The notes beneath the pieces are model-generated. The model was not told where the DNA came from and did no database searches. It saw only the letters and a program-made list of their open reading frames with translations. Positions 3,369 to 6,130 of a DNA stretch of 64,000 nucleotides are shown in pieces. The DNA is from Mesorhizobium waimense. Its GTDB lineage: Bacteria; Pseudomonadota; Alphaproteobacteria; Rhizobiales; Rhizobiaceae. The translations under genes and the position numbers were made by a program. The stretch covers positions 1 through 64,000 of the forward strand of contig NZ_QZWZ01000008.1 in assembly GCF_003601975.1 (NCBI RefSeq), in the 5' to 3' direction. Position 1 is the first letter of the stretch. Every line of letters starts with the position of its first letter.

Positions 3369-4117
3369 TGGCTGACGCGGCTGCAATGGGCGCGGTTGCC
3401 GAACTCTGGCGCTATCCGGCGAGTTCGCTCGCCGGCGAGCGCCTCGACGCCATCATGGTCGACGTCGAAGGCATCGAGGGCGACCGCATGTTCGGCTTGG
3501 TCGATGCCACCGACAATGAGATCGCCAGGCCCGATCGCGATTCAAAATGGCACAATGTGCCACGGATCCGCACCCGGTTGACCGGCGACCGCAAACTCGA
3601 AGTTGCCGCGCCTGGCGGCGACTGGATGGCGGCGCCAGACGCCGACAGCGACCGCGCCATCTCCGCCTTTCTCGGCTTCCAAGCGTCGATCCGGCCCTTC
3701 ACCCGGGAGAATGCTGCTGCCGGCCATTCCGGTCCGCTGACCGCGGCGCGCTACCGCAAGGCCCCGATCCATCTCCTGACCACGGCCTCGCTGGCGCGGC
3801 TGAAGGCTCTGCATCCTGAAGGCGCCGCCGACCCGCGCCGCTTCCGCCCCAACATCGTCGTCGACATGGCGGCGGTCGAAGGCTCGTTTCCCGAAACGGA
3901 ATGGATCGGCAAGAAGCTCGCGATCGGCGAGCTGCATCTGACCATCTCCGAGCCGTGCCGCCGCTGCGGCTTCACCATCATCGCTCAGGACGGCTTCGAC
4001 AACGATCCAGGAATCCTGCGCAACCTCGTCCGCCACAACGCGCACAATCTCGGCGTCTACTGCACGGTCGATAGGCCGGCGCGGGTCGAGGTTGGCGCGC
4101 CGATACGGTTCGTCTGA
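3368..4117 (+). CDS. MOSC domain protein (MOSC_N plus MOSC)
   Basis: A 249-residue protein with an N-terminal MOSC_N beta-barrel (about residues 8-95, beginning VAELWRYPASSLAGERL) and a C-terminal MOSC domain. The key cysteine is in EPCRRCGFT near residue 197, and the RFRPNIVVD segment precedes it. MOSC proteins handle molybdenum cofactor sulfur or reduce N-hydroxylated compounds (YcbX/mARC-like); the specific role here is not evident. It overlaps the acs stop by one base and is followed by a terminator-like hairpin at 4117-4158. Confidence 0.88.
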
Positions 4118-4158
4118 CAAGGCGCCCTTGGCTTTTTCAAATCCGCGCCTTGTCTTTT
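4117..4158 (+). terminator. Rho-independent terminator after the MOSC gene
   Basis: Inverted arms ACAAGGCGC (4117-4125) and GCGCCTTGT (4145-4153) followed by TCTTTT. It overlaps the MOSC stop codon and separates acs-MOSC from the short ORF downstream. Confidence 0.7.
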
Positions 4159-4198
4159 GCTGCGACGCACCCCATCATGAGGGTGTGATCAACAGATC

Positions 4199-4213
4199 GA
4201 AAGGAGGTGATCC
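4199..4213 (+). promoter_or_regulatory. Extended Shine-Dalgarno sequence of the short ORF
   Basis: GAAAGGAGGTGATCC is complementary over 15 bases to the conserved 3' end of bacterial 16S rRNA. The GGAGG core is 7 bases from the ATG at 4215. This is far stronger than any other ribosome site I examined in the window. Confidence 0.75.
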
Positions 4214-4214
4214 G

Positions 4215-4286
4215 ATGTCGAGTGATTTCGTTTTCCAGAACGTGGCCTCAGCGGATTGCACTTTCGGGAAGCAGTCTTCCCGTTAA
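4215..4286 (+). CDS. Short ORF, 23-residue peptide of unknown function
   Basis: I do not recognise this peptide, which starts MSSDFVFQ, has one cysteine in DCTFGK and ends QSSR. Support for translation is the near-perfect anti-SD complement at 4199-4213 with ideal spacing. The ORF lies between two terminators (4117-4158 and 4356-4393), so it would be a stand-alone transcript of about 200-230 bases. No promoter is certain; TTGTCT at 4150 and CATCAT at 4173 with a 17-base spacer is a weak candidate. It could be a functional micropeptide, a dual-function small RNA, or the translated leader of a regulatory RNA whose remaining part is 4287-4393. Confidence 0.5.
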   Translation: MSSDFVFQNVASADCTFGKQSSR

Positions 4287-4355
4287 GGCGCGAGATGCGC
4301 GGCAGGTGACGTGAGAGCGTCGCCGCCAGAGACCGCGCCATGGACGGAAACACGG

Positions 4356-4393
4356 AAGGCCGCCGGCTTCGAAAGAAGTGGCGGCCTTTTCCG
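4356..4393 (+). terminator. Rho-independent terminator after the short ORF
   Basis: Perfect 9-bp arms AAGGCCGCC (4356-4364) and GGCGGCCTT (4380-4388) followed by TTCC. It ends the short-ORF transcript and faces the end of the convergent TadG-like gene (stop at 4422). Confidence 0.8.
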
Positions 4394-4421
4394 TTCCCGC
4401 GACCTGCCCGAAGTCGGCGGA

Positions 4422-5834
4422 TCAACGCTTGATAGTCAGCGTCTCGATGTTGCGAGTGATCTCGTCGAAGGCATTCGCCAGATCAGTGCCCGTGGCGGCC
4501 TCGTGATAATGCTTCAGCGAGGACGTGTCAGTGGTCGAGCAATTCTTCAGCACGGACTTTGCTTGATCGCGCTCGGTCGCCGTCATTGACGGGTCGTTCA
4601 GATCGAAGCCGATGGTGAATATCTCGATGCCGTCGCGCTTCATGTTGCTGCAGATGCTTTCGGCATTGCTGCGCGACATCTGGCCAGCATCCTGCGATCT
4701 GGATGTGCCACGCCCACGGGCGAAAGCCGTGTTGAACTGACCATCCGTCATCAGGATGGCAATCTTGGCCACTTTCTTCTTGTCGAAATTGGCGGGCCCG
4801 GCGCCCAGGCCGGCATCGGCAATAGCCGGACGCCAAGCCGGAGAAAGCATGTAGTAGCCCCATTGCGCGGCGATGCCACCTGCCGTCACGCCCGCGGCGC
4901 TGAAATCGTCGATGGCGGTGAGCAGCTTGTCCTCATCGGACGTCAGCGGAACGAGAGCCGCCGACGGGCATACCCTCATACGATAGTCACGATTCACCTT
5001 AGCCAGATAGCGCTTGCCCTTATTGTCCAGACGAAGCGTATCGGGCCCGTCGGACGAGTAATCGGCATAGCCGTCCTTGTCCTTGCGCTCTGTGGCGCAT
5101 TTGTCCGGTGCTGGATTTGCCGACACCACGACGGCCGCATCGACCGGCGGCGGCACCTTCGGTCCGTCCTCCGTCTCGACGAATACGGTGGCGGCCAAAC
5201 CACCGGTGTTGACGGCCTCGGCGTAGGGAACGATCGCCACCCGCACGCGCGGATTGCTGGGGTCGCGATTCTGGTCGAGCAGGTCCTTGACCGCATCCGA
5301 AGCAGCGGCCTGCAGATCACCGATCTTGTCGGTCTTGCCGGATCTCTTCATCGATCCGGTCACATCCAGCATCATCGCCACTTCGACCGTCTTGTCCGAA
5401 TAGAGCGCGGTTGTGGATGCCGGCACGCGCTGCGTGTCACCCATGCTGAACAGCGGGAAATAGAAGGCGACATCGACATGGACGTCCGCTCGCACGGTCC
5501 TGGCCGTCCTGTCGACCGTCAATTTGTCGAGAACGATCTGGTCGGTCTGCAGGATGCCGGCCACGCTATTGGCGTCGAGAAAAGCCTGCACCGATTTGTC
5601 CGCATCGGCCTCGTTGATGTCGCCGGTGGTGAGATCGCGCGCCGTCGAGGTCACCGCCGCGTCGACGACGCCCTGCAGGCTCGATTTTGCGTTGTAGAGC
5701 TGGGAGACGTTGACCGCGAAGCCGACGCCTAGCGCCAGCACCGACACTGCAAAGCCGAAGACGATGGCGAAGTTTCCGCCGCGATCCCTAGCAAAGTCGC
5801 CGCCTGCCTGAACAAAACCCTCGAACCGCCGCAT
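4422..5834 (-). CDS. TadG-like pilus-assembly protein with VWA domain
   Basis: A 470-residue protein with the N-terminal signature of TadE/TadG-type proteins: RDRGGNFAIVFGFAVSVLAL at about 17-36, a single membrane segment continuing to about 45, then SSLQGVVDAAVTSTAR. A von Willebrand factor A domain starts around residue 150 with a metal-site motif DVTGSM (Asp157, a DxTxS variant) and a later LMTDGQ. The start at 5834 is chosen because a GGAGGG site precedes it; the frame stays open to 5939. Proteins of this type are surface-anchored and often travel with Tad pilus genes, but none is adjacent, so the partner is unknown. Confidence 0.8.
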   Translation of the reverse strand: MRRFEGFVQAGGDFARDRGGNFAIVFGFAVSVLALGVGFAVNVSQLYNAKSSLQGVVDAAVTSTARDLTTGDINEADADKSVQAFLDANSVAGILQTDQIVLDKLTVDRTARTVRADVHVDVAFYFPLFSMGDTQRVPASTTALYSDKTVEVAMMLDVTGSMKRSGKTDKIGDLQAAASDAVKDLLDQNRDPSNPRVRVAIVPYAEAVNTGGLAATVFVETEDGPKVPPPVDAAVVVSANPAPDKCATERKDKDGYADYSSDGPDTLRLDNKGKRYLAKVNRDYRMRVCPSAALVPLTSDEDKLLTAIDDFSAAGVTAGGIAAQWGYYMLSPAWRPAIADAGLGAGPANFDKKKVAKIAILMTDGQFNTAFARGRGTSRSQDAGQMSRSNAESICSNMKRDGIEIFTIGFDLNDPSMTATERDQAKSVLKNCSTTDTSSLKHYHEAATGTDLANAFDEITRNIETLTIKR

Positions 5835-6130
5835 CTTTCCGCCCTCCACTTGCCGCGGCCTCGAAACCGCATGAGGGGAGTTGCAGGAATCCGGCCGAAT
5901 GGCGCTGCCGCGGCTGCGAAGACCGTCGTCTCTTGTCAAATCATTGTTTTTGCTATGTTTCGAAGCCGGGCAAGGTGAACGGCCGGTAAACAGAAAACCC
6001 CAGCCGCAAGTTCCTTTACGAACTGCTTACCATGATCGCGCCCGTGGCCTTTTTCGGTCCCGATCCGGCACAGACGGATTGTCCCGAAGCGGTTCACTAG
6101 TCGATTTCAGGCCGGTCGCCGATGGCGTCG
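5835..6130. other. Intergenic region upstream of the TadG-like gene
   Basis: About 300 bases between two leftward genes. It should hold the TadG-like promoter and the end of the transglutaminase transcript. I see no clear gene, terminator or operator. Confidence 0.4.

Follow-up and report, generated by a model that had tools for sequence, protein, structure and literature searches.

A CC2171-type RNA of Mesorhizobium waimense with a maintained short reading frame and an extended Shine–Dalgarno sequence

A short reading frame that is preceded by a Shine–Dalgarno sequence of 15 bases raises the question of what is maintained at such a locus: the peptide, the RNA, or translation itself. A frame of this kind lies in the 64,000-nucleotide stretch of Mesorhizobium waimense DNA analyzed here (contig NZ_QZWZ01000008.1, positions 1 to 64,000; referred to as the window). 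An initial annotation, made from the sequence alone, had described it as a free-standing ORF between two terminators that could encode a micropeptide or belong to a dual-function RNA, and that might be undescribed.

The locus and its relation to Rfam CC2171

The ORF, which reads MSSDFVFQNVASADCTFGKQSSR, consists of 23 codons plus the stop codon at positions 4215–4286 of the forward strand, and its frame, length and stop are kept class-wide. Positions 4199–4213 of the same strand hold the 15-base Shine–Dalgarno sequence GAAAGGAGGTGATCC. The match to the anti-Shine–Dalgarno region claimed for it was confirmed, as it is the exact complement of GGATCACCTCCTTTC, the 3′ end of the 16S rRNA taken from a Phyllobacterium rRNA operon; neither this genome nor five relatives gave a match to the 16S-end pattern, so that complementarity to the strain's own 16S rRNA is not read directly. 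That this Shine–Dalgarno sequence is unlike those of other genes in the window also holds, the next-best match to the 16S tail being 10 bases long. Its 11-base core, AAAGGAGGTGA, has five copies in the 8.15-Mb genome, of which the other four continue differently. In 231 non-redundant loci, anchored for this count on the motif itself with at most two mismatches, each of the 15 bases is kept in 96–100%. The 23-residue peptide has no match in Pfam. The neighbors upstream, on the same strand, are acs and a gene with a MOSC domain, and downstream a Tad-type gene (4422–5939) lies on the minus strand.

The RNA itself turned out to have a known family, which refutes the suggestion that it is undescribed. 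The Rfam model RF01867 (CC2171) matches positions 4191–4387 over its full length (model positions 1–159) with 32.6 bits and an E-value of 2e-5 for the 321 bases searched; against the whole genome the match is single, with an E-value of 1.2e-4. Since this score lies below the curated cut-off of 75 bits, the RNA is called a homolog of CC2171 and not a member by the Rfam rule. Judged from its sequence, it is a divergent, Mesorhizobium-type homolog of the alphaproteobacterial CC2171 RNA. Besides the score, the likeness consists of the block GAAAGGAGGUGAUCC at the 5′ end, of a long-range stem that closes just before the terminator, both stem and terminator being present in the window RNA, and of the Shine–Dalgarno sequence with a GTG start, contained in the family consensus as GAAAGGAGGUGAUCCAGUGUC. 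The middle region, in contrast, has diverged. Relatives match the model as well, in 13 of 13 loci of one set and 9 of 10 of another, and four of them score above the cut-off (L069, 100.7 bits; L055, 88.6; L274, 86.1; L262, 75.5), with scores rising toward the Caulobacter side, as in L274 and L069. Under strict filters, 61 of the 289 genomes of the class were matched, 9 of them above the cut-off, and among 14 named control genomes Caulobacter vibrioides alone was matched. Other Rfam families gave weak, chance-level matches in the window, where the default gathering threshold left only a tRNA; BjrC1505 overlaps one of the loci with a score of 28.9 bits, which falls short of the cut-off of 50 for that family.

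Rfam types RF01867 as an sRNA, and the family material examined does not mention an ORF. In Mesorhizobium huakuii 7653R, an intergenic RNA of 215 nt found by RNA-seq, MH_s33, is listed as RF01867 (PMC5596092); it is likened to the window RNA by this listed family and not by sequence, and differs in that no ORF is mentioned for it in the part of that source consulted. As far as literature searches reached, no description of an ORF inside CC2171 RNAs was found. With the RNA family itself known, what appears to be new within that reach is that CC2171-type RNAs carry a maintained short ORF with a Shine–Dalgarno sequence covering the full 16S tail, and that the encoded peptide drifts. The sources consulted assign these RNAs no function.

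Conservation, spread and limits of the transcript

Of the 37 genus genomes, the window's own included, 36 have a match to the region 4117–4400, G013 being the one without. Over 33 genus loci, mean identity is 0.34 upstream, 0.75 in the likely promoter, 0.998 from the Shine–Dalgarno sequence to the start codon, 0.97 in the remainder of the ORF, 0.80 after the stop codon, 0.93 in the 3′ arm of the long-range stem plus terminator, and 0.39 beyond. This profile delimits a conserved unit of approximately 4135–4390 that has a likely promoter and a terminator to itself. Across the order, 127 of the 249 genomes searched contain the pattern AGGAGGTGATCCRRTGTC with no more than one mismatch, mostly as a single copy, and the reversed-pattern control gave 2 matches. 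A looser pattern was found in 93 of 151 genomes of the family, representing 68 of 109 genera, with 5 control matches, in view of which some of the two-mismatch matches look like chance. At the settings given, there was no match in 58 of 151 family, 122 of 249 order and, under strict filters, 228 of 289 class genomes. A scan of bacteria and archaea with one genome per species returned at least 119 stretches. Among the 80 matches listed, all titles that name a lineage below 'Proteobacteria' are of organisms that we take to be alphaproteobacterial. To judge by the named loci, CC2171-type RNAs occur in at least Hyphomicrobiales, Caulobacterales, Rhodobacterales, Sphingomonadales and Rhodospirillales-type lineages. 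Chance as the origin of the pattern is ruled out by its presence in 36 of 37 genus genomes, at about one copy per genome, and by the 2 control matches in 249 genomes. A mobile element was rejected as well, the RNA having no match in plasmid and phage collections.

A likely promoter on the forward strand (4149–4178) consists of CTTGTC at 4149–4154, a spacer of 18 bases and CATCAT at 4173–4178. The hexamers are proposed from conservation: mean identity over 4135–4182 is 0.75, with CTTG kept in at least 97% of the 33 genus loci, and a simple scan for consensus elements detected no sigma-70 promoter for the RNA. The RNA is placed at 4185–4393 on the basis of the RF01867 match and of folding, its 5′ end being estimated at about 7 bases past the −10-like hexamer; the fold of 4160–4395 beats 200 of 200 shuffles (z −5.35). 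The separate transcript of about 200 bases that had been predicted is thus supported, and an RNA of 215 nt seen by RNA-seq is listed under CC2171 for M. huakuii, its locus being matched by family and not by sequence (PMC5596092).

Of the two terminators said to box the ORF, the downstream one stands. It lies at 4356–4393 on the forward strand and is a strong hairpin (4354–4392, −27 kcal/mol, z −5.0). In the wider set, a terminator-like hairpin follows the stop codon in 196 of 226 loci vs. 26–35 of 213–221 at displaced places; by the rule applied, 30 of about 226–228 loci are without one. The upstream hairpin with its TTTT (4116–4158, forward strand; hairpin 4116–4154, −18.5 kcal/mol, z −4.0) lies outside the conserved unit, in a stretch (4085–4134) with a mean identity of 0.34 in the genus. 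Because its sequence is unconserved, it is apparently a local element and probably terminates the acs-MOSC genes in this species. A consensus terminator scan missed the downstream terminator and caught only a five-pair part (4118–4130) of the upstream hairpin, with 1 terminator found vs. 0.6 expected. The 3′ arm of the upstream hairpin overlaps the conserved CTTG that resembles the −35 element of the promoter of the RNA.

A maintained frame, a drifting peptide and a covarying structure

To follow the reading frame, the ORF was counted from the triplet two bases past GGAGGTGATC in the 231 non-redundant loci (130 plus 101 further, a 45% 8-mer reduction of 331; L223, L245 and L250 are too short and were left out of the counts). 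Frame 0 closes at 18–32 codons in 96% of them, vs. 17% for frame +1 and 19% for frame +2. For the first 130 loci the values are 96% vs. 14 and 13%, and nucleotide shuffling gives 23%, with a maximum of 35% in 200 shuffles. The result is the same for loci picked by the Rfam model alone, of which 46 out of 46 close at 18–35 codons vs. 7 and 11 out of 46 in the other frames. Start codons in the 231 loci are ATG (129), GTG (99) and TTG (1), two loci being mis-anchored; the search patterns for the later loci already included the TG of the start, so that the most reliable start-codon counts are those of the loci picked by the model (n = 50), with 28 ATG, 19 GTG, 2 TTG and 1 other. All three stop codons are used (TGA 134, TAA 54, TAG 43). 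In Rhodobacterales, 14 of 14 ORFs are exactly 18 codons long and end in TAG (8), TGA (5) or TAA (1). The start, ORF and stop that the initial annotation took to be genuine are thus supported by an ORF that is plainly conserved across loci, and its idea of a dual-function RNA or small mRNA gains comparative support in the same way. Outliers in length are 14 codons in Bradyrhizobium, 34–36 in a few loci and 59 in L281. The Bradyrhizobium-type loci L155, L261 and L286 share a 14-codon ORF (V S x x K R C H L A x x A R) and have a tRNA gene at about 150–300 nt from the RNA. In L281 (6757–6840, Azospirillum sp. B21), a matching Shine–Dalgarno sequence and start lead into an unlike ORF of 59 codons, MSHGASPVVAALFGLAALL...

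The peptide behaves differently from the frame that encodes it. It is kept within the genus and changes freely beyond it, while the ORF itself persists, so that an expectation of a conserved peptide is borne out only at close range. Disjoint close pairs in four groups give pN/pS values of 0.81, 1.6, 0.98 and 0.88, and the variable codons among the 11 haplotypes of the genus are 9 non-synonymous and 1 synonymous, which speaks against the micropeptide as the object of selection; a pN/pS of about 1 could nevertheless mask weak selection on the peptide, since RNA structure also constrains synonymous sites. Some lineages do have recognizable words (VSHC..TWILAS, EQP), by RNA constraint or otherwise. 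One of these has a nucleotide counterpart: GGAGCARCCTC, which encodes EQP in many loci, falls into other reading frames at L045, L057, L094, L121, L174 and L178. Its part GCARCC occurs within the ORF in 58 of 92 MSS-type loci (2.1 expected) and directly past the stop codon in 12 of 14 Rhodobacterales (0.1 expected). Because it is read in differing frames, inside the ORF or beyond its stop, GCARCC is regarded as an RNA element. Comparison of the sequences indicates that the start, length and stop of the ORF are under selection and that the peptide product is not.

The structure was derived from 14 Rhizobiaceae-type sequences out of 22, the other eight having different ORF types or long 3′ parts; L039, L181 and L281 were left out of the structure work. 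Four helices result, i.e., P1, P1b, P2 and the terminator. P1 pairs positions 4222–4230 (codons 3–6) with 4345–4353, directly before the terminator, where the Rfam CC2171 model is paired too. P1b joins 4240–4247 to 4331–4338, with 4 of 8 pairs changed on both sides. P2 (4265–4282) closes the ORF as a hairpin of 4265–4271 with 4276–4282, for which covariation (99% of cells paired, 4 of 7 pairs changed on both sides) is joined by motif enrichment, the loop being CAGT in the window and holding the GCARCC motif in relatives. All of these arms lie on the forward strand. Overall, 18 of 33 pairs are changed on both sides with 92.6% of cells paired, a result matched by 0 of 500 shuffles and 0 of 6 slid versions, although the structure was derived from the very alignment on which it was tested. 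P1 was additionally examined by swapping arms between 198 loci: arms with their own partner score −8.93 vs. −6.77 when swapped (sd 0.146, 300 permutations). With over-wide windows the comparison is uninformative (−12.77 for own, −11.03 for swapped and −11.59 for shuffled arms). In Rhodobacterales P1 is weak, with −6.61 for the own partner and no gain over swapped arms. The leader with the Shine–Dalgarno sequence lies outside P1 and the ORF inside it from codon 3 onward, so that most of the ORF falls within covarying helices closed by the long-range stem.

Possible roles of the translated RNA

With start, length and stop selected and the product not, the analysis arrives at translation itself as the selected property. 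The findings suggest that the act of translation is of greater importance than the peptide it yields. The RNA is probably a translated small mRNA whose peptide is not what selection acts on, and CC2171-type RNAs would, with good likelihood, be structured small mRNAs and not non-coding ones. In Caulobacter, ncRNA regions are generally untranslated, with two earlier predicted ncRNAs being translated (Schrader et al., PMC4117421); in the part of that source consulted these two are unnamed, and it is not stated whether CC2171 is among them.

As to how translation could serve the RNA, the Shine–Dalgarno sequence spans 15–16 bases of the 16S 3′ tail, with the start codon at a fixed spacing. An initiating ribosome would have to melt P1, then P1b and P2, and would halt before the terminator. 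Since the helices would have to be opened in turn, the RNA would have two exclusive states, loaded and folded. Its strong Shine–Dalgarno sequence would keep the RNA loaded as long as free 30S subunits are present, and folding would be confined to times of their scarcity; it would then be the folded form that acts on a partner or is cleaved by it. Such a switch, in which ribosome loading selects the folded or the open state, is proposed tentatively, from the anatomy of the RNA. It is possible too, albeit doubtful, that the RNA is selected for translation throughout the class because, in competition for free 30S subunits, it reports or buffers initiation capacity by folding and unfolding. Should the loading switch hold, an RNA would here be sensing ribosome availability in a new manner. 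In any case, an ORF with start, length and stop kept by selection without its peptide makes CC2171, otherwise an entry in a list, a problem that can be tested; a sizeable RNA family labeled non-coding may be translated, and the Rfam cut-off misses much of it.

Other explanations assign the ORF a different weight. An sRNA of dual function could regulate mRNAs in trans by base pairing through an exposed loop (GCARCC/CCUC, resembling an anti-Shine–Dalgarno motif), translation modulating its stability or availability. The conserved loop motif GCARCC agrees with this, as does CCTC, which 77 of 128 loci contain within the ORF (38 expected); such motifs are common in rhizobial sRNAs, and SisA-D of Caulobacter carry an anti-Shine–Dalgarno motif (PMC12559287). 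However, CCTC is missing in 51 of the 128 loci, and GCARCC is present in just 8 of 55 VSH-type loci and 5 of 20 Sphingomonadales, where the Shine–Dalgarno sequence and the ORF are kept all the same. Base pairing as the main role is given limited credence. Less credible is an ordinary micropeptide gene whose product evolves fast. A strong initiation site, a conserved frame and length, and recurring lineage-specific words (MSHGSA..SV, VSR.ILERGVGT) are in line with it, but the pN/pS of about 1 in four groups and the 9:1 ratio in the genus argue the other way, as do a motif that is shared across reading frames or placed outside the ORF and the high conservation (0.93) of the non-coding P1 3′ arm with the terminator. 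The functional conserved peptide of a dual-function sRNA is likewise not seen in these figures. Among known systems, rnTrpL/peTrpL of Sinorhizobium and Spot 42/SpfP resemble the window RNA in being small RNAs with a translated short ORF (PMC10117765); they differ in that a function is described for their peptide, and the peptide sequence here is not maintained. Extended pairing between Shine–Dalgarno and anti-Shine–Dalgarno sequences occurs at small ORFs of Staphylococcus aureus (PMC13009471), which as other genes in another phylum are, as far as this source was consulted, a mechanistic parallel only.

The opposite extreme, a non-coding RNA that tethers or decoys 30S subunits by its Shine–Dalgarno-like stretch, with the ORF being incidental, would account for a complement that far exceeds the needs of initiation and is the best-kept part of the RNA, in a family that Rfam files as sRNA. 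It is quite improbable given an ORF that closes at 18–32 codons in 96% of loci vs. 17–23% in controls and given the interchange of ATG with GTG and of all three stops. Control of a neighboring gene by a leader peptide or attenuator is still more improbable and is largely refuted by position and neighbors. The arrangement of a short ORF with strong initiation ahead of a terminator does recall such leaders, and in the Bosea locus the RNA is followed after 119 nt by a same-strand RNB-domain gene of RNase R type (L225:3314–5632). In the window, however, the next gene (4422–5939) is on the minus strand, which leaves no gene to be regulated next downstream on the strand of the RNA, and the neighbors differ among the 16 loci examined with a crude longest-ORF rule, eight neighbor proteins being searched against Pfam. 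In three Rhodobacterales loci (L222:6471–7112, L285:4461–5135 and L231:2707–3417) a Vut_1 transporter gene (PF02592) lies on the same strand, with the RNA 40–76 nt downstream of it; this neighbor is constant in those three loci and not elsewhere.
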